Origin: Dentipellis sp. KUC8613
Lineage: Eukaryota; Basidiomycota; Agaricomycetes; Russulales; Hericiaceae
Assembly: GCA_002286715.1 (NCBI GenBank)
Contig: NSJX01000007.1
Location: forward strand, 7,999-71,998
Direction: 5' to 3'
DNA length: 64,000 bases
Under the pieces are notes generated by a model. The model was not told the origin of the DNA, made no database searches, and saw only the letters and a list, made by a program, of their open reading frames with translations. The translations under genes were made by a program, and so were the position numbers. Of the stretch, positions 16,798 to 64,000 are shown in pieces; the stretch's first letter is position 1, and each line of letters starts with the position of its first letter.

Positions 16798-19507
16798 TGC
16801 AGTAAGACCCACTACCACAGGCGTACTAAAGATCCCTGCTGACTACAGCCCCCGAACAGCTCGTGTAGCATGGCACGATACGCGTACCCTCACCGGAAGC
16901 AGTTGACGCCAGGCTTGCAGTAGCCCAAAGCTCATCTAGCCCCGGGCCTCCTTAACCACTTATCGCTCACCATCGCAACTAGCGCTACGCAATGCAAATA
17001 CACGGGATCTATGCGCTGCTCTGAGCCCGGGTGCGTTCCGCGCCTCAGCATTTGACACTCAGCCACGATCGAGGCCCGGATGGCACACGCATCTGACTAC
17101 GACGAGGAAGTTATAGCTATAGCTATCGTCCACGGAAGCGCCAGCACGCAACGCCTCGCTGCGCAGGACAAATGGCAGGCACCTTCCAGAGTGTTCTCTG
17201 CTCTTATCTCGCCTTCGCGCGTCACGGCTGATCCCCACTCAGCCTCAGGCAGGCAGGCGGCACGTCGACGCCTGGGACATCTGCGTCTTCTGCGCATTCA
17301 AATGCGCCCCCATCACCGCAGCCCACGGCCGCGCAGCCCCATTAGTATGCCTCCCAGCCCCAAGGCGCTCCCGGTCAGCCTCAACGCGCGTCTGCGCCCA
17401 GGTCATGTGCGCAGAGGCCCCGCCCACTATCATCGCGCGCCGCCGCCTTCGCCCTGTTCGCTATAGCAGCACGGCGCTCGCCTGCCAAATAGAAGCTCAG
17501 AACCCGGACCCAGCCCCCGCGCGAGCTTCTGCCATCCGATCGCCTGCCTAACGCCCTTCGCTTTCCATCTTGATCCTTCGTTCATTCATCCATTCATTCA
17601 TTTCGTCCTCGTCTTCGTCCTCGCTCTCGTTCTCGCCCCCGCTTTCGCATTGGCTGCCTGTCACCGGCCCCCAGAGCCCCCATCTCGCCTCCGCACCTTG
17701 GATCTTGCGCGCCAGTCCGCCCCGCCGCCACAGGCGCCTCGGCGGCCCACCTATCATCTACGTTCTTCGGACCTCCATCTTGCAATATGTACATCGCCAC
17801 CTGCCTCCTGTGGCCAACCCGCGCCGCCTCTACTCTATTGCGATGCTAGCTACTAGCGCCTAGCGCCTGCCGGCGACTTATCCTCCCATACCAGTATGTG
17901 TGTATTCCGGGACACACGCCCATCCGCCCGCGCCTGACGCATGACGCATGATGGGTGACGCAGCCCTGCTTTCGTGTCCATGTTCGTGTCCGCCTCAGCC
18001 CCAAACCCTTATGATCGTCGAAGCCGCCCTCAAGGCAGGTTCGTGACAGCCCTGGGCCTGCGCTGATCCTCGTCCCCCGCAATGGGCCGATCTCGCACTC
18101 ACACCTGCAAACCTCAACGTGGACGTGGACGTGAGTGCGAGTGCGTAAACCCTAGTGGCTGCTGCCCCCGTGACCGGCGACCTTTGAGTCCCTGCTTCAT
18201 TGCTGCATGCTTCCCGTCCCGTCTGCACAGAGGGTGTTTGAAATTGCATTCACTATGCGAGTTCCTGCACAGTGCGTATCGTCAACCCCAGCGCAGCTGC
18301 TCTATGCTCTATCCGTCTATCTATCTACGCTCCCGCAGCTCAATCCCACAGAAACGAATCACACCAGCCTGTCCATAGCTATAGTCCTAGGCCCCAGGCG
18401 CAGCCCGGCGGCCCGGCGCCCCACCACACGCGCAGATTAAGTTCGTCCTCGCCTCCGTGTCCGTGTTCGAGCTGTCGGATCTCCACCCCCCGAATTCAAA
18501 CCCTCACCCCACTTCGCGATTCGATCGATCTGTATCGCACCTTTTACCCCGCGTTTCGTAGGGCGTGCAGGCAGGCGATAGCGCTGACTCATGCTGACAG
18601 TGGCTTGCTGGGTGGGTGGGTTGTGGCTGGCTGGCTGGTTGGTTGGTGGTTATCCGATACGCAGACCGTGCGGGGCGTGGCATGGGGCTTTCTGGGGCGG
18701 TTTGTTCGAAGGGGAAGGCGAAGCGCCGGAGCTCGGGCGCTTAGACTCAACCCCAAGCTCGAGAGGCTCACTGGAACCTTCGCCCACATTCCATCCTGCA
18801 TTCCATCGGTCGGCTTGTGCTTTGGCCGAAAGGCAGAGACGTGAACGTCGGACGCTGATAAGAACACGGCGCGCGTGTGAATACGTATTATCCTAATGAC
18901 TATAAGACTTAAAGACATGGATATGGGACGGCGATGATGGATGAGGAGGGATGGAGACGGAGATGGAGGTGCGATCAATAAGGTGCAGTGCGGCATGATA
19001 TACTTACGCGGCTGCGGCGGGACCATCGGGCGGGGGTGGTATACTGTACAACGCTGTGCATGAGAAAGAGTCGGAGGAAGAGGAAGAGGAAGAGTTGGGT
19101 TGGGTTATGGTCGGGGTGGGATGGGATGGTCCCGCGCGCAGCCATTAGGATTGACGAGAGATGGAACGGTGGACTGGGACTGGGGGCTGGGGATGAACGG
19201 TGGACGGTGAACGGTAACGATGCAGGAGAAAGGGAATATGGATATGCAGTGCGTGGAAGTGAACCGGAATGGAATGGAAGGAAGTGAAGTGAAGTGAAGT
19301 GGAATGCAGACGGGACTGGTATTGGGTGGTATCTGTCATGGAGGGACGTGCCGATCATGAATGAGTGTCGTAGAAAGAAAAAAGGCGGGGATACTAGTAC
19401 AGGGTCCTGCCCTACGCCTAAGGTAAGGAGTCGGGTAAGTGGCAACATGCTGCTCTGGCAATGGACGTGGATCCATCCACAGACATCAAGCCATCGACGC
19501 GCAACGC
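16798..19507. other. 2.7 kb without a supported gene
   Basis: GC-rich sequence with only short frames. Simple repeats are present: TTCATTCAT runs near 17579-17602, a GGCTGGCTGG/TTGG run near 18625-18650 and a GAAGT run near 19283-19303. The right part is the 3' flank of the minus-strand DUF6699 gene. I see no RNA gene. Confidence 0.4.
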
Positions 19508-20653
19508 TCAGCACCGCAGCTCGTCCTTCGAGCTCAACAGCAGCGCCCAGTAGCCGTCCGGAAACTCCTTGGACGGCGCGACCCAATCGAGGCCGCCAAA
19601 GTAGCTCTTGCCCGCAAGCAGATCGAAGCGGCGGTAGCCCTTCTCGCGCTCGAGCATCGACGCGCGGCGGCAGCGCTCCTCGAACGCGGCATGCGCGCCG
19701 CGCAGGCGGTCCGCGTGCATGCGGCGCTCGGGGTTCGTGAGCACGATGCTGAGCTGCTCGTAGATTTCGCGGAAGACGTCGATGCAGGTGATGCCGGCGC
19801 CGCCGCGCGCGACGTAGACGGGCCACTCGGGCAGCTCCGCGCAGCGGATCGTCATCTCGTGCAGCGCGGGCTCGCTCGCGGGCTTCTTGCGCTCGGTCAC
19901 CGTCAGCGGGCGCCGCTGCGTGCGCGCGACCGCGTCGATCAGGTCGATGTGCTCCGCGTGGAAGCGCACGTCGAAGGACACGCGGGCCTTGCGTTTCGGG
20001 TAGCTGAACGGCAGCAGCTTCCAGTGTAGTGCTGCCGGAGGTGCGGGGACTGCAGGGAAACCGGCATGGTGAGCGGCGCGCCCGGGAATCTGATAGCAAG
20101 GCGGGCGGGCATACCTGGGGGTGTGGGCGCCCCGCGTAAAGGGGCGGGGTGCGCCCGCGAAGCGGCGGCGCGCTGCTTCTCGGGCGACGACGCGTATCCG
20201 TCACGGTCGACGTCCGCGCTGCCTGTCACGTCGCGCGGATCAGCGCCGTTGCTCGCACGCGGCACAAAGAGACAACCCACCGTGCTTCAGAATGCCCTTT
20301 GGCATGCTCGTGCGCGCATCCGATGGGCGGCGTGTCCTCGATGTCGGCGCTGATGTCGATGCGGACGAGGACGACGCCGTGGTGGTGGTGGACGACGAGG
20401 ACGGGGCTCTGGGCTTGTGCTTGGTGGACGGGCCCTGCGCCTCGGGGGACGTGAAGTAGCCGCTGTCCTGGCTGGACGGGTGCCGGCGATGGCCGCGGGA
20501 CGAGGAGGTCTGCATGCCACAGACTGCCTGGGGCGTCTCCGACCGCCGCAGCCGCGGCGACGCCTCTACCACCTCGGGCAGGGGGATCCTACCCATGCGC
20601 GGGGCCTGCGGGGTCATCATGAACGACTCCTTCATTCTCTGGATCTTGAGCAT
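19508..20653 (-). CDS. DUF6699-domain protein, 340 aa
   Basis: Exons 20653-20281, 20222-20115 and 20049-19508 join through introns of 58 and 65 bases. The start is ATG (MLKIQRMKESF). The N-terminal half is low-complexity, rich in Ser/Pro/Arg. It leads to KGILKHG, then the basidiomycete DUF6699 block: LHWKLLPFSYPKRKARVSFD, then LPEWPVYVARGGAGITCIDV, then FREIYEQLSIVLTNPER. It ends with GLDWVAPSKEFPDGYWALLL. The domain is widespread and expanded in Agaricomycetes, and its biochemical role is unknown to me. Both ends fit family expectation, so the gene is probably complete. Confidence 0.85.
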
Positions 20654-46348: not shown

Positions 46349-47396
46349 TCATTTCGAGACGCGCTTTACCTATTAAAACACAAGGCCGGAAGCCAGAACC
46401 GTAAGTATGCACCACAGCACTGCGTAAACGGAAACGGAGACAGACCTCGGGCTCTTCACCTGCAACCCCATCAAACTGGGCGTCCGAGACGAGCTTTTTC
46501 TACACGGGCCCAACAGCCAGAACCGTCAGCATACACCGCGATAGCACGCTGCATTAGAGACGAAGACGGACCTCGCCAGCAAGCTCTTCACCTACTGGCC
46601 CGACATCATCACCACCAGCTGCAGACTGAGCCGCCTCAGACTTCGAAGCTTCAGACGTCCCAGCCGCCGCATCGTCCGGCATTGTGAGCCAACTCAGAGT
46701 CTACATCATCATCGACAACAACAGGCGTGGTCAACAAGCTTAAGTGCCATCCAATAACACGGATACCTCGAAGGGAAAGTCTGACCTTGCGAGGCGCCCT
46801 CCCGCCGGTGGACTTTTGCGCGGTCTGTTTGAGCCTCCAATACGAGTCAGCCCACGTCATGCCAGTGGTGTGTATGAACTGCTTCATGGCGAGAGCGAGG
46901 GGGAGAGAGAGAGAGGGCGGGAAGGCTTACAGCTTCACGCGCGGCTTGTGGGGCGGCATTGGAGATTTGGACGTGCGGCTGGCGGTAGATGGTGATGGTG
47001 CCTACAGCGATACGTGATTGAGCTCTCAAGCCAGACCGGGTAGAGCACGCAGACGGAAGAGATATGGCACGCACCGCTTGCTGTCGCTGCTGCTGCGACG
47101 ACGACGCCTGTGTCCGCTGCCGCACGGCCTCCTGCGCGTAGAAGCCGCGAGTCCGAGTCGCCGGTGACGATGCCGATGCCGACGCCGACGCGGCCCTTGG
47201 GAGCAGCTCTTGTGCGGCGGAGCTGCGCTGTTGGTCCACATACGTCAATACCCGGCACGAACAAGAGAACGGATTCAGAGGTGGAAAGGAGCGTCAACGC
47301 TGGACGTACCGTGCGGCGCCGCTCGGTGCTCGAAGATTGGCCCGGAGGCGGCGAAGCTGCGCGTATCTGCGGGAGCTTTTTTCTCGGGGCGCGCAT
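46349..47396 (-). CDS. histone H3 tail-mimic protein B, 187 aa, one tail copy
   Basis: Seven exons: 47396-47310, 47227-47075, 47001-46931, 46834-46786, 46700-46572, 46499-46446 and 46369-46349, all joined in frame. The fourth exon encodes KQTAQKSTGGRAPRK, which is H3 residues 4-18 with R8 to Q and K14 to R. The N-terminus begins MRAPRKKLPQIRAASPPPG, weakly like H3 residues 14-30. Exon 2 (LLPRAASAS .. RGFYAQEAVRQRTQ) matches the leader exon of the neighbouring six-tail gene (LLPLASYT .. RGYYEREVARQQRQ), so the two are paralogues. The C-terminal third is acidic (GGDDVGPVGEELAGE), ends KRVSK, and has no histone fold. The last two introns (46571-46500 and 46445-46370) are similar to each other, another sign of internal duplication. 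The last exon is uncertain: after the TGA another protein-like frame continues (LEMCNEYMADIRKLEQ). Confidence 0.6.
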
Positions 47397-48100: not shown

Positions 48101-49512
48101 TCAAAATTCATACCCCTGCACCCGCGGCGGCGCGCGCCCGCTCGTCTTGCGCGCCGTCTGCTTCGTGCGCGGCGCCCTCTGTGCCATCAGTGCCGGTGCA
48201 CCTGATACACCAGCCGGCTCACAAGCTGCGTGGGGTGCACTGGGGTGGCTGTATCCCTGCATATCCAAGACTCTTAGATCATGCGCCAAATACTGATGTC
48301 TGAGGGACGTACCGCTGTGGGCCGATAGCCCCCCGTCGTCTTGCGCGCCGTCTGTTTCGTGCGTCGTTGAGGGATTGGCTGGGAGGACATCCCGACGCCC
48401 GGGTCGGGCGAGCCGGACGATAGGGTTGGATCAGTGTCGATACCAGTGTCCTGCTCAGAATGAGGGTATTCCTGGAGGACACAGACATCGTTATACTTCA
48501 CGATAAAGAGGAGAGACGGTGGCAGGGCACGACACCGGGTATAATACGAACCTCCGCAGACCCCAAGCCAGAGCCACTCCCGCTCACACGAGGCGGCGCA
48601 CGCCCGCTCGATTTACGCGCCGTCTGCTTCGTGCGAGGCGCTCCGGTCACGGCCGCATGCGCATCTGACATCGGCATGGACCACCATGTGCCGCCCGTCT
48701 GAACGTATTCCTGCATAGTACGATCCTGGGATATATATCTTGATCTGACTAGAAGGGAGGGAGAATATACCTCGATGGCCTCAGGAGCCCGCAATGTGGG
48801 GTATGGACGCGCTTGCGGTTGTGCGCGCGGGGTGTTAGTTCCAGACGACTTGCGCGCCGTCTGCTTCGTGCGAGGCGCTTCAGGCGCTGCCGCGTGCGCA
48901 TCTGGCACAGGCATAGACCAACATGTGCCGCCCGTCTGGACGTATTCCTGTATAGTACGATCCTGGGATATATATCTTGGTCTGACTAGAAGGGAGGGAG
49001 AATATACCTCGATGGCCTCAGGAGCCCGCAATGTGGGGTATGGACGCGCTTGTGGTTGCGCGCGCGGCGCGTTAGTCCCAGACGACTTGCGCGCCGTCTG
49101 CTTCGTGCGAGGCACTCGTTCTACATCCTCGTTCACGTCTGTGTGCGCATCTGGCGCTGGCATAGACCACCATGTACCGCCCGTCTGGACATATTGCGCG
49201 CGCGGTGCGCTGGTTCCGGACGACTTGCGCGCCGTCTGTTTCGTGCGGGGACCTGTGCCGCGCGATAGCGCTGGCGCTACCTGCGCGATAAGGGCAGTAA
49301 TAGCACTCGATGAAGGATCTGTAGGGAAGAAGAGCGTCGACAGGGATACGCACCTGCGAACTCGAAGTCCGCGTCTCGGCGGCGCCCTGTCGCTGCTGCC
49401 GCGCCACCTCCCGCTCGTAGTACCCGCGCGGCCGTGCGTGCGCGTCGTCTGAGTCGTGGCGCGTGTAGGATGCGAGCGGGAGGAGGTCGCCTGGCGCGGG
49501 CTGCGTGTTCAT
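48101..49512 (-). CDS. histone H3 tail-repeat protein A, 360 aa, six tail copies
   Basis: Six exons (49512-49354, 49280-49008, 48947-48771, 48710-48552, 48471-48313, 48256-48101), every junction in phase 0, ATG to TGA. Exon 1 is a leader (MNTQPAPGDLLPLAS .. RGYYEREVARQQRQ). The rest carries six copies of H3 residues 2-9, RTKQTARK, beginning near residues 65, 111, 170, 229, 293 and 339. Most read PRTKQTARKSSGTNAPR or PRTKQTARKSSGRAPPR; copy five reads RRTKQTARKTTGGYRP. H3 itself is ARTKQTARKSTGGKAPRK, so R2, K4, R8, K9 and S10 are kept while K14 and K18 are lost. Linkers repeat EYVQTGGT.WSMP and QARPYPTLRAPEAIE. There is no histone fold, signal peptide or membrane helix. The copies are internal, not at the free N-terminus. 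I infer a nuclear substrate or decoy for H3 modifiers and readers; no such family is known to me. Confidence 0.75.
48552..49280 (-). repeat. tandem exon-intron duplications within H3 tail-repeat gene
   Basis: Introns 49007-48948 and 48770-48711 are both 60 bases and almost identical (GTATATTCTCCCTCCC start, ATACAG or ATGCAG end). Exons 3 and 4 start with the same EYVQTGGT segment, and exons 2 and 3 end with the same QARPYPTLRAPEAIE segment. The unit of one 177-base exon plus one 60-base intron (237 bases) has thus been duplicated in tandem. Near-identity of the introns shows that the duplication is recent. Confidence 0.85.
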
Positions 49513-59231: not shown

Positions 59232-59953
59232 CACCCCCCCCCCCTTTTTTTATCCTCTTCCCTCTCTCCCTCATATACCCTACGGACCCTATGCTCTCTC
59301 TCCCCCCCTTCCATCCCCCCCACTCCTTCTCACCATACTGCTAATCCTCTTACCTCTGGTGCACCCCGCCCGTATACCCTTCCCTCTTTTCTCTCCCCTT
59401 CTCCCCTTTCGTCATAACCATAAAATCATAATATCGCCTGCCCCCCGAATTCCTCAAGTTCTTTCCCTTTCTTTTAGATCACTTATCCTATCACACTCTG
59501 CCGCTCCTTTACCGTCGTAGCTAGCCCACCCTAACCCTTCCGGTCCTTACTGCTATTAACCTATCCGACGTAGCCGAATATACTGTTGCTGCGCACCCTT
59601 AGCCATTGATCGAACTGCCGCGCCTCCCGCACTCGGCGGCGTACGCCGGCAAACCACCCGATACCTCTGAGATTATGAGAAGCACCCTCAGACATGCTCA
59701 ACCTTGTCGGCCCACATATACTGCTTGCGAGCAAGACAGGAAAGCCGCCAAGAGCCTTCTCCCCCGACGTCTCCCTGACGTCACCAACGGCGACCTATTT
59801 AGGTCAGGTGACTAGCTGTGCAGAGATGCTGAAGCTACCGAAATTGCCGGAATCCGTCGCCGAGGATTGATTCTGTCGATTTCCCAAGCAAGTCCCACCC
59901 GCTGGAGATCGGCCCCCATCTCCTGGTCTACTCATAGTCGTAAGTAGACACGA
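59232..59953 (+). other. inter-ORF spacer of the LINE
   Basis: About 720 bases between the ORF1 stop and the ORF2 start, very C/T-rich just after ORF1 (runs of C and T at 59232-59250). No coding signal seen. ORF2 would need reinitiation or an internal entry mechanism. Confidence 0.6.
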
Positions 59954-62900
59954 ATGACGACTGCTACACCCCAAATTCCATCCCCAATACCTTCCCGGTC
60001 CTCTTCGTCCAATGGTTCGCGCCTTAGCAATCGCAGTGAAGACCTTCCCGCCGCCAGGTCCTCTCAAGAAACTGCTTCTGCTGAGTATGGTGGCAATTCG
60101 CCTTCCTCTTCCTATGCTTCCCAACATAACCCCCAATTGACCCCACCCAGGTCCCCCCACACCAGGCAAACAACCGACACCGGACTTCGGTCGCGCGCAA
60201 ACTTAAAAGTCGCAACCCTTAACATGAAAGGACGAGCCTCTACCCTCCTTGGCTGGTCATCTACCTCCAAGTGGGCGGAAATTCAGTACACTATGAAACA
60301 TAACACTATCGCTATCCTTGCGTTACAGGAAACCCACCTCGACCAACCTCATATCAATGAAATCAATACCCTATACTCTAAACGCTTACGCGTCTTCTCT
60401 ACTGCCGACCCTACCCGCCCCGCGACCTCTAGCAGCGTCGCTTTTGTCCTCAATAAGTCTCTACTCAACACATCATTATGTACCACCGCGGTCCTCATAC
60501 CAGGCCGCGCCCTTTTCCTCTCCCTTAAATGGCATAACCATGAATCCCTTCACTTTCTTAATGTCTATGCGCCCGTTGAAACCCCCCAACAGCCTGACTT
60601 TTGGAACTGCCTCGTCGAGAAATGGGCTGCCCTACACCTCCCCAAACCTGACTTCCTCCTCGGCGACTTCAATCTGACCGAAGACGCCCTTGACCGTGCC
60701 CCGGTATGCATAGACCCTGTGGTCGCTACGGATTCCCTTCGTAACGCGCACATCCGCCTAGGCGTACAAGACTACTGGCGCCACACCTTCCCGGACACAC
60801 GTCTCTTCACTTATACCTCTCCCTTCCACCAACACTTCTCCCAATCCCGACTTGACCGTATCTACACATCTGACCGCGTCTCCCCGACTGTATATGAATG
60901 GAATTGCCTTAATTCTTCTGTCCCAACTGACCATCACCTCATTACTGTCCGATACGCCCTCCCTAACTCCCCCCAAACCGGCTCCGGTCGTTGGACACTA
61001 CCCCTCTACCTACTCAATAATACGGATCTTCTTTCCATAATAAATAAAAAAGGCCTTCATTATATGGCACAGATGGACCGAGCCATCAACGACCGAACCC
61101 CCCTAAACAATCCCCAGACCCTTTGGTCCGCCCTTAAAAACGACATTATTGCGGCAGCCAAACCTCTCTCTCGTGCTGCAGCAGGTAAAATCAACAGCCG
61201 AATCAACTGTTTAAACAACGACCGAACAACTCTCCTGAGCGACCCCAACTATGCCGAGAACCAGGATCTCCGATACCAAGTCGCACTCCTTGCAAATGAA
61301 ATCCAACACCTCCAACAAAAACAACGTCTATCACAACGACAGAACGTCAAAATGAAATGGGCGTTAACCGTGGAACGCAACACACGACCTTGGACACGCT
61401 CGACCATACAACCCAAACCGCGCGACCCCATCTTCCGCTTACGCACTCCCTCCCCGTCCCCTGCCCCCGTCCACTATGAAACTAACTCCCAAAAAATGGC
61501 CAACCTGGCCGGCGCATACCACGATCAACTCCAACAATTAGATCTCTTCACCTCAGACTCATCTGACGACCTTAACCATGTCCTTCAATCTGTAGTAAAC
61601 TATATCCCTCCCTCATCAATACTACAAGACGACGCACGGGACGCGAGCGACATGAACAGCCCAATTACTGAAGATGACGTCATCACTGCTCTTCACCATT
61701 GTAAAAACGGTACCGCCACCGGTCTTGACAGCTGCCCCTATGAACTTTGGAAAAAACTACACGCTACCTTCACTTCATCGCAACCAACCTCTCCGCCCAC
61801 CTTCAACATCGTGAAATTTTTAACTGTGGTCTTTAATGACATCCAAATGTATGGCCTAACCGAGCACTCCTCCTTTAGCCATGGCTGGATGTGCCCCATC
61901 TACAAAAAGAATGACATGACCGACATCGCTAACTACCGACCCATCACGCTCCTCAACACTGACTATAAAATCTTTACAAAAATTCTTACTTCTCAGCTCT
62001 CGCAGGTCGCAGACGACCTCGTTAGCCCCAATCAAGCCGGCTTCCTGCCTGGCCGCTCCATATTCGACCAAACACGCCTTGCGCAAATGATCATTGGTTA
62101 CGCGGAAGCCATGGAGGAAAATGGTGTAATTATGGCGCTCGACCAAGAGAAAGCGTATGATAAAGTTCGCCACGACTACCTCTGGCTTATCCTCCGCAAA
62201 TTTAATCTACCCACCCGTTTTATTAAAACGATACAATCCCTGTACAACAACGCCTTCACCCAAGTCGTGATTAACGGCTTCTTTAGTAAACCTTACAAAG
62301 TATCCCGCGGCGTCAGACAAGGCGACCCACTCTCCTGCCTCCTATTTGATCTCGCTATTGACACCCTCCCGGCAATGCTCCGCCATTCTCCCGATATTCA
62401 CGGCTTCCAAATCCCCGGTTTGGACCGACAAGTCCTCATTAGCCTATTCGCTGACGATACCGCATTATACCTAAACGAAAACACTAACTACCACTCTGTA
62501 CAACAAATTCTGGACCGCTGGTGTCGAGCCTCCGGTGCGAAATTCAATATCAATAAAACTGAAATTATTCCCATAGGCACCCCTGCCTACCGTAACCGCC
62601 TCACCACACAGCGAACACTAAACCCAACTGATGCCCTCCCCCTTGACCCCCAAATCCGTATATCGCCTGATGGCCATCCAATTCGCTACCTCGGCGCCTG
62701 GATCGGCAATGATGTTGACGATGCCGTCCCCTGGGAACCCATCCTTGACAAAATGCGCACAAAGCTTACCAACTGGCTCCCGTCACGACCTACCTTAATG
62801 GGTAAACGTCTCATCGTCCAAATGGTCGTCGCTGGTTCCACCCAATTTCTCACCCAAGTTAACGGCATGCCAAAACACATCGAATCTGCGATCCTCACTG

Positions 62901-64000
62901 ATATAAAACACTTTCTCTGGCCGAACCGTCGCTCCGCTGCAATCTCTCTCGACACCCTCTACCTCCCTGTCAAGGACGGCGGGATAGGTCTCCTAGACCT
63001 CCAGGCATGCAACGAAGCGACTGACATTATCTGGTTGAAATCTTACCTTGATCTATCCCCCTCTCGCCCCGCGTGGGCCTTCATTGCTGACATCCTCATA
63101 AACCGTCTAGCCCCCTCCTCTTTACACGATATCCCACGCATTAACGCCTTCCTTCAAAACTGGTCCCCAGTCCTTCAAGGACCGCGTACAAACGCTATCC
63201 CGCATACCCTTCTCACTATGCTTAAGGTGGCAAAAAAATATAACACAAACTTTGCTGTGCTTCGCCTTACCGATAATTTAAAACGTCAAATTCCCGCCTG
63301 GTGCCACCTTGGCTCCCTCACCTATCGACAAGATGACTGCTCGCGCTGCCTCCAACATTCCCACAAAGTCCTAACCGTTGCTGATCTGACCAAAGTCGCT
63401 CGCAGACTCACGAACCTAGTCAACGGCCGCCCCCACCACAATATCAGTACATGTGCCTGCCAGGACTGCAATACAGATCGCCTCCTCCACTGTCGTAACC
63501 CGAACAAATGTGCAAAAAAAGCGCGTGATATCCTCGCCAACATTTTCCCTCTCCTCCGCCCCGGCGACCTCAGACCCTCAGACGGCCTCACCCACACCCC
63601 TACCCGTGAACAGCAAACCCAACATGCCCGATCAAATAACCAAAATATACTCTTCAACCCCTCCATTACATGTAAAACTGACCTTGCCGACTGTTTCCGT
63701 ATCTTCACCACCCCTATCGCACTATTCCACCAACCTGCTTCCCGCCTTTCGTCCCCTCCGATCCAGGGCCGCCCCCGCCGCCATAAGACCGTCTATACGG
63801 ACGGTTCATGCATCAACAATGGACGCCATAACGCACAATGCGGCAGCGGATTATGGATAGAGGACCATGACCCACTAAACTGCTCATTTCGTGTCCCTGG
63901 CCCCTTTCAATCCAACCAAGTCGGCGAAATTGTCGCCGTCATCCTGGCCTTACAGAAAATCCCCCCTGATACCCCCCTCACCATCCATACCGACTCTAAA
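59954..64000 (+). CDS. LINE ORF2 polyprotein, endonuclease-RT-RNase H, partial (1349 codons)
   Basis: The frame opens at ATG 59954, right after an in-frame TAG at 59945, and stays open for 1349 codons to the window edge. Endonuclease motifs: VATLNMKG, ILALQETHL, FLNVYAP, LLGDFNLTEDALDR, SRLDRIYTS and VPTDHHLITVRY. Reverse transcriptase: NYRPITLLNTDYKIFTKIL, QAGFLPGRSIFDQ, MALDQEKAYDKVRHDYLW (motif A), GVRQGDPLSCLLFDLAID (motif B) and LFADDTALYL (motif C). A Cys-rich stretch CSRCLQHSH and CACQDCNTDRLLHCRN follows. RNase H begins at TVYTDGSC, with the Glu of GEIVAVILAL and the Asp of IHTDS at the very end. All catalytic residues expected so far are present and no frameshift was seen. Confidence 0.93.
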   Translation, partial: MTTATPQIPSPIPSRSSSSNGSRLSNRSEDLPAARSSQETASAEYGGNSPSSSYASQHNPQLTPPRSPHTRQTTDTGLRSRANLKVATLNMKGRASTLLGWSSTSKWAEIQYTMKHNTIAILALQETHLDQPHINEINTLYSKRLRVFSTADPTRPATSSSVAFVLNKSLLNTSLCTTAVLIPGRALFLSLKWHNHESLHFLNVYAPVETPQQPDFWNCLVEKWAALHLPKPDFLLGDFNLTEDALDRAPVCIDPVVATDSLRNAHIRLGVQDYWRHTFPDTRLFTYTSPFHQHFSQSRLDRIYTSDRVSPTVYEWNCLNSSVPTDHHLITVRYALPNSPQTGSGRWTLPLYLLNNTDLLSIINKKGLHYMAQMDRAINDRTPLNNPQTLWSALKNDIIAAAKPLSRAAAGKINSRINCLNNDRTTLLSDPNYAENQDLRYQVALLANEIQHLQQKQRLSQRQNVKMKWALTVERNTRPWTRSTIQPKPRDPIFRLRTPSPSPAPVHYETNSQKMANLAGAYHDQLQQLDLFTSDSSDDLNHVLQSVVNYIPPSSILQDDARDASDMNSPITEDDVITALHHCKNGTATGLDSCPYELWKKLHATFTSSQPTSPPTFNIVKFLTVVFNDIQMYGLTEHSSFSHGWMCPIYKKNDMTDIANYRPITLLNTDYKIFTKILTSQLSQVADDLVSPNQAGFLPGRSIFDQTRLAQMIIGYAEAMEENGVIMALDQEKAYDKVRHDYLWLILRKFNLPTRFIKTIQSLYNNAFTQVVINGFFSKPYKVSRGVRQGDPLSCLLFDLAIDTLPAMLRHSPDIHGFQIPGLDRQVLISLFADDTALYLNENTNYHSVQQILDRWCRASGAKFNINKTEIIPIGTPAYRNRLTTQRTLNPTDALPLDPQIRISPDGHPIRYLGAWIGNDVDDAVPWEPILDKMRTKLTNWLPSRPTLMGKRLIVQMVVAGSTQFLTQVNGMPKHIESAILTDIKHFLWPNRRSAAISLDTLYLPVKDGGIGLLDLQACNEATDIIWLKSYLDLSPSRPAWAFIADILINRLAPSSLHDIPRINAFLQNWSPVLQGPRTNAIPHTLLTMLKVAKKYNTNFAVLRLTDNLKRQIPAWCHLGSLTYRQDDCSRCLQHSHKVLTVADLTKVARRLTNLVNGRPHHNISTCACQDCNTDRLLHCRNPNKCAKKARDILANIFPLLRPGDLRPSDGLTHTPTREQQTQHARSNNQNILFNPSITCKTDLADCFRIFTTPIALFHQPASRLSSPPIQGRPRRHKTVYTDGSCINNGRHNAQCGSGLWIEDHDPLNCSFRVPGPFQSNQVGEIVAVILALQKIPPDTPLTIHTDSK

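Follow-up and report, generated by a model that had tools for sequence, protein, structure and literature searches.

A Dentipellis gene encoding a non-histone protein with six copies of the histone H3 N-terminal tail sequence

Introduction

Why would a protein that is not a histone carry the N-terminal tail of histone H3 six times, and which partner could such a protein serve? The question is raised by a gene of the basidiomycete Dentipellis sp. KUC8613 (Russulales, Hericiaceae), here called gene A, which lies in a 64,000-nt stretch of DNA (the window) on contig C139 of the 34.1 Mb genome. A preliminary description, made from the sequence alone, had proposed that six segments of a six-exon, 360-residue gene product without a histone fold contain RTKQTARK, identical to H3 residues 2-9, and that the product is a multivalent histone-tail mimic, acting as a scaffold or as a decoy. 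Here we examine the gene model, the six tails, their substitution pattern and their relatives, and weigh what the protein might do.

Results

Gene model and predicted protein

Gene A runs on the minus strand from an ATG at 49512 to a stop codon at 48101, giving 360 codons after splicing. Its five introns, set by hand on this strand, are all GT-AG and measure 73, 60, 60, 80 and 56 nt. The features of the spliced model are as follows.

48101..49512, minus strand: gene A (DENSPDRAFT_835255), six-exon gene for a 360-aa protein with six H3 tails
49354..49512, minus strand: exon 1, N-terminal segment like gene B (LLPLAS...RPRGYYEREVARQQRQ), without an H3 tail
49008..49280, minus strand: exon 2, modules 1 and 2 (two tails)
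48771..48947, minus strand: exon 3, module 3
48552..48710, minus strand: exon 4, module 4
48313..48471, minus strand: exon 5, module 5
48101..48256, minus strand: exon 6, module 6 and stop codon

Hand splicing gave the same coordinates as the preliminary description and the same splice sites as the deposited model. A protein search (E <= 0.001) gave a single hit, the hypothetical protein DENSPDRAFT_835255 of Dentipellis sp. KUC8613, with 360/360 residues identical. Searching the product against Pfam returned 0 families at E 0.01, and thus no histone fold domain, in agreement with its description as a non-histone protein. On a residue disorder scale, 94% of its 21-residue windows exceed 0.09, versus 52% for canonical H3, and the protein is probably disordered. 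Elsewhere in the window, the open frame at 59948-64000 of the plus strand resembles that of a retroelement, its domains being those of an endonuclease, a reverse transcriptase and an RNase H.

Six in-frame H3 tails

All six RTKQTARK copies were found in frame on the minus strand, as first described.

49224..49247, minus strand: RTKQTARK copy 1, in-frame octamer
49086..49109, minus strand: RTKQTARK copy 2, in-frame octamer
48849..48872, minus strand: RTKQTARK copy 3, in-frame octamer
48612..48635, minus strand: RTKQTARK copy 4, in-frame octamer
48340..48363, minus strand: RTKQTARK copy 5, in-frame octamer
48146..48169, minus strand: RTKQTARK copy 6, in-frame octamer

Each octamer equals H3 residues 2-9 exactly, and the likeness continues beyond it: over the 18 residues of H3 2-19, the tails share 14, 14, 13, 12, 12 and 12 identities. 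The S-S-G and A-P-R-like elements reported after the octamer were recovered in slightly broader form, with S/T-S/T-G following directly in 6/6 tails and P16-R17 present in 5/6 (two A-P-R, one T-P-R and two P-P-R). R8, K9, S/T10, S/T11 and G12 are thus present in every tail; T11 is replaced by S in 5/6, G13 is altered in 5/6, and K14 and K18 are absent from all six. All six tails are internal, each preceded by P or R. Against the PDB, the product matched 86 sequences at E <= 1 (best E 0.033), and the 60 of these that were listed consist of H3, its peptides and chimeras; two peptides are named only by their H3-like sequence. Gene A therefore encodes H3 N-terminal tail sequence, including the H3K9-like segment, in a non-histone protein.

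The octamers are not chance occurrences

A scan of all six frames of the window for the H3 tail found seven tails, the six of gene A and one in the neighbouring gene B, scoring 53-73; the next site scored 30, and the top sites in five base shuffles of the window scored 29-37. A degenerate DNA pattern for the octamer, which is blind to octamers split by an intron such as those seen by eye in other H3 genes of this genome, gave 8 matches genome-wide, namely the six of gene A and two canonical H3 genes with an uninterrupted octamer that form a divergent pair on contig C117. The reversed octamer, used as a control pattern, had 0 matches in the whole genome. By eye, the tails of the other H3 genes are either intron-split or altered in sequence: an H3-like gene on C106 has an altered tail that starts MARTKQTARRTVGG, and one on C120 reads MARTK followed by an intron and, later, the piece IGGKTPRKQL.

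The same pattern matched 99 stretches in 257 Gb of prokaryote contigs. Among the 80 of these that were listed, the octamer was in frame 48 times, 5 times with an H3-like continuation; we take these five to be probably eukaryotic H3 genes or contamination. The approximately 43 octamers without a clear H3 continuation (80 listed of 99) correspond to a chance rate of about 0.006 per 34 Mb. Viruses contributed 2 in-frame octamers, and among the matches listed neither these 2 nor the 48 from prokaryotes are relatives, as far as seen. The scan scores, the shuffles and the pattern counts in the genome and in prokaryotes rule out a chance origin of the six octamers, upholding the earlier judgement that so many identical segments could not be accidental.

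Repeat architecture and substitution pattern

Part of the array is a tandem repeat at the DNA level.

48609..49082, minus strand: tandem pair of 237-nt units, 91% identical, with tails 3 and 4 and a repeated 60-nt intron

Modules 2 to 4 have a common linker (YVQTGGT.WSMP..DAH), and modules 2 and 3 also a common downstream segment; modules 1, 5 and 6 have little in common with the others except the tail and its surroundings. Within the exons of the 237-nt pair, 19/177 sites differ, and in the annotated frame 12 differences are synonymous and 7 nonsynonymous (pS 0.263, pN 0.053, Fisher P 0.0003; pN/pS about 0.2). In the two other minus-strand frames pN exceeds pS, as it does in two frames of the plus strand, while an antisense open frame of 225 codons gives pS 0.181 and pN 0.058 (P 0.008). 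The substitution pattern argues for coding, yet by itself it leaves the strand undecided; gene A was assigned to the minus strand mainly because of its H3 likeness and the deposited model.

The linker YVQTGGTWWSMP looks constrained, with pS 0.55 and pN 0.075 between modules 2 and 4 (P 0.0016), and P values of 0.03 between modules 3 and 4 and 0.06 between modules 2 and 3. Among the six octamers only three bases vary, all of them synonymous third positions (P 0.016-0.029 taken alone). Across copies, the motif has pN 0.000 and pS 0.200 with 5% of bases diverged, versus pN 0.638 and 66% of bases diverged in the 7 codons upstream and pN 0.391 and 45% in the 8 codons downstream; these values compare copies within one genome, which may exchange sequence. 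The pattern indicates that the octamer is kept at the protein level and that the array does not look decayed. The preliminary description had named a solitary, decaying array that no relative shares as an outcome that would undo its reading; the synonymous-only changes in the motif speak against decay, and protein searches did find no orthologue (see below).

The two copies of the 60-nt intron (49007-48948 and 48770-48711) differ at 2/60 bases versus 26% at synonymous sites; this lower divergence makes it probable that homogenisation has affected part of the repeat. A genome-wide search for this intron found no copy besides these two, both in gene A.

Lysines are confined to the octamers

All 12 lysines of the gene A product (12/12) are K4 or K9 equivalents inside the octamers, and the 312 residues outside the motifs contain 0 lysines and 23 arginines. 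Shuffling the bases outside the motif within codon positions gave a mean of 6.5 lysines and none in 0.04% of 5000 shuffles; with near-duplicate segments dropped, the mean was 4.9 and none occurred in 36/10,000. The window is GC-rich, and 5/81 of its putative open-frame pieces of at least 100 codons are also free of lysine, the one at 18978-20225 on the minus strand having 416 codons and 69 arginines. That the tails retain K4 and K9 but lack K14 and K18 points towards the biology of methylated rather than acetylated lysine.

Lysine-desert proteins, described in the accessible part of PMC10169902 as having long lysine-free stretches, often disordered, that are proposed to guard against stray ubiquitylation or other lysine modification, may resemble the gene A product in having such stretches. 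Unlike in those proteins, the desert of the gene A product is broken only by histone-type lysines.

A neighbouring degenerate relative

A related stretch, gene B (46786-47396, minus strand), lies roughly 0.9 kb past the gene A stop codon.

47075..47227, minus strand: gene B candidate exon like gene A exon 1, 51 codons, from alignment and shuffles
47074-47002, minus strand: gene B candidate intron, 73 nt, placed by eye
46786..46836, minus strand: gene B degenerate H3 tail RLKQTAQKSTGGRAPRK, the top H3-tail score of the window (73)

The candidate exon aligned to gene A exon 1 with a score of 62, versus a maximum of 54 in 2000 shuffles, and the candidate intron, by eye, has the GTGCGT donor and the 73-nt length of intron 1 of gene A. 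In the gene B tail T3 is replaced by L and R8 by Q, and two stops fall within one of the three matched stretches. A search of the protein collection with a joined gene B model returned nothing at E 1e-3 among 5155 candidates, gene B itself included. Because of the two stops and this absence, gene B may be a relic.

Whole-genome searches found no further relatives of genes A and B. The search with gene A recovered the six exons of this gene plus one weakly matching place (E 0.167). Gene B and the H3 genes were both missing from its output, so it could overlook diverged relatives. We also considered gene A as a widespread repeat or mobile element; its own six exons, the place at E 0.167 and the two intron copies give this idea no support.

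Relatives and known histone mimics

No orthologue of gene A was found among about 5.8 billion proteins in searches with the full-length product and with residues 1-130, which covered proteins of 0.55-1.75 times the query length. With residues 1-130 and E <= 10, 2/575 candidates were listed, the gene A product itself and the hypothetical protein BJ508DRAFT_303974 (230 aa) of Ascobolus immersus, whose E of 6.3 is meaningless on its own. This protein has no Pfam domain at E 0.1 and contains two H3 tails, MARTKQTARKSTGGAAPRKVLA and RTKQTARKSSGILAPRSQIA, starting at residues 3 and 105. Like gene A, it has an internal tail, the second, with the pattern RTKQTARKSSG..APR.Q; both of its tails keep K4, K9, G12 and P16 and have K14 replaced. 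It differs from gene A in having only two tails, one of them at the free N-terminus, and 26 lysines, many in its C-terminal part. By BLASTP, similarity between the two proteins beyond the tails is not convincing: 9/10 pieces include a tail, the longest (24/62 identical) extends weakly past it, and the tenth has E 40. We read BJ508DRAFT_303974 as an independent case in another phylum. Counted over the tails of genes A and B and of BJ508DRAFT_303974, K4, K9, G12 and P16 occur in 9/9 tails, R8 in 8/9 and K14 in 0/9. The earlier statement that no similar family is known calls for qualification, the Ascobolus protein having two H3 tails and no Pfam domain.

No multi-tail protein appeared in the histone-mimic and H3-tail literature covered, which comprised titles and abstract openings and few subscription journals. 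G9a, WIZ, LIG1 and ATF7IP are non-histone proteins with short H3K9-like motifs, and in ATF7IP the H3K9-like sequence is trimethylated by G9a/GLP, the protein recruiting MPP8, which has a chromodomain (PMC6172828 and PMC10611923, as far as the accessible text of both goes). Gene A shares with these proteins an H3K9-like sequence in a non-histone context; as portrayed in those portions, theirs are short ARK-type motifs, whereas gene A has six longer R2-G12 segments and no other lysine. In fission yeast, a sequence mimicking histone H3 keeps Swi6/HP1 auto-inhibited (PMC7192584, accessible portion). This, too, is an H3 mimic in a fungal protein, but going by that portion it sits inside HP1 itself, while the gene A product is a separate, multivalent protein. 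Histone H3, represented in this genome by the C117 pair and variants, resembles gene A across residues 2-19 (12-14/18 positions); unlike H3, the gene A product has no Pfam histone domain and six tails, none of them N-terminal.

Fit to H3K9 writers and readers

A six-frame search of the genome gave a single Pre-SET match. Chromodomain matches numbered at least 25, none of them assigned to HP1, and many may lie in transposable elements. According to the accessible portion of PMC3248561, Neurospora DIM-5 requires only R8-G12 in vitro: its activity is abolished by R8A and G12P, greatly reduced by S10A and T11A and slightly reduced by G13M, with no significant effect of K4L, A7M, K14R, A15M or P16A. 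That source also counts G13 among the needed residues in its discussion and table, and A7 in the table. In the part of PMC8303541 consulted, SUV39H1 accepts S at T11, and SUV39H2 reads T11 and G13. Measured against these accounts, the gene A tails fit the needs of DIM-5 in part, since all six keep R-K-S/T-S/T-G and lack K14, and the T11 to S and G13 changes fit the needs of DIM-5 and SUV39H2 less well. R2-T3-K4 is invariant although DIM-5 has no need of K4, so a reader of R8-G12 alone is an incomplete account. The invariance of R2-K4 suggests a second constraint, from a reader or enzyme acting on T3, on K4 or on both lysines.

Discussion

The reading that we favour, with a probability of roughly 0.45, is that the gene A product is a multivalent H3-tail mimic whose K9 equivalents would be methylated by the Pre-SET enzyme of this genome and bound by HP1-type chromodomain proteins. 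It builds on the sequence and gene model, the tail similarity, the substitution pattern, the lysine distribution and the Pre-SET and chromodomain matches. A histone H3 gene would be the most likely source of the acquired segment, which is like H3 residues 2-19; compared by codons with one H3 gene, the six gene A tails have 31-37/54 bases equal, a similarity that does not separate descent from convergence. The segment would then have been multiplied, in part by tandem duplication, and selection would hold R2-K9 identical and residues 10-12 as S/T-S/T-G, with K14, K18 and the other lysines gone. If the gene is expressed, the K9 equivalents could be methylated by the SUV39/Clr4/DIM-5-type Pre-SET enzyme, and HP1-like chromodomain proteins could then dock on the methylated protein. 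Soluble and with six arms, it would serve H3K9 writers and readers either as a scaffold or as a sink, neither being favoured. Of the multivalent tail mimic first proposed, the non-histone nature, the H3 likeness beyond the octamer (12-14/18) and the maintenance of the motif at the protein level have held, and the mimicry itself stays at the strength given here.

An unlikely but substantial alternative is that the tails mimic H3 for a partner of unmodified or K4-modified R2-K9 and not for the pathway of K9 methylation and HP1, the candidates, which share this probability jointly, being a K4 methyltransferase or demethylase, a T3 or S10 kinase, or a reader that recognises K4 together with K9. 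The eight residues are invariant in 6/6 copies while their flanks have diverged, and, in the accessible account of DIM-5 (PMC3248561), K4, which is kept, is not needed and G13, which contributes to activity, is not kept. Against such a partner, G12 and S/T10-11 are kept as well. K4 enzymes are not expected to require these residues. Some H3K4 readers need the free amino terminus of H3, and since all six tails are internal, partners with this need should not bind.

We consider it quite unlikely that gene A is a young, lineage-restricted gene that arose by duplication of an H3 fragment and has no chromatin function, its octamer serving as a general basic signal, such as one for nuclear import, or being functionless. 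Only its own deposited record matches clearly among the roughly 5.8 billion proteins (8000 candidates sharing most words were scored in the full-length search), and the adjoining paralogue, gene B, is degenerate and absent from the protein collection in the form searched. Such an origin would leave unexplained an exact octamer with synonymous-only changes next to diverged flanks and a pN/pS near 0.2 between copies, and a general basic signal would not be expected to lose K14 and K18 yet keep K4 and K9. Very improbable is an unexpressed or misread stretch in which the true gene is on the plus strand (the 225-aa open frame at 48775-49452) or there is none. The antisense frame exists and shows a synonymous bias between the 237-nt copies (P 0.008), but the annotated frame is more strongly biased (P 0.0003), and the antisense bias is likely an echo, given the register of that frame. 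The splice sites are the same in the deposited model, and the H3-like continuation past the octamer, seen again in gene B, makes a reading accident very unlikely. What chiefly led us to reject the antisense reading was the likeness to H3 together with the deposited model.

By its sequence, the gene A product looks like a histone mimic whose copy number, segment length and lysine distribution are unlike those of literature mimics such as ATF7IP (PMC6172828, accessible part). The histone mimics compared are, in the portions of the literature covered, short motifs in proteins with other tasks. More doubtfully, Dentipellis and Ascobolus may point to a fungal 'poly-tail' class of soluble, multivalent H3 tails without K14 that would have evolved at least twice and would be methylated in place of histones, titrating or clustering heterochromatin writers and HP1. 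The H3K4me and H3K9me antibodies might also detect the gene A product, which would be relevant to chromatin work in this Dentipellis. With its conserved tails and lysines nowhere else, the protein would be a natural test of how H3K9 and H3K4 enzymes act on a tail detached from nucleosomes, and of whether heterochromatin can be regulated by titrating its writers and readers.
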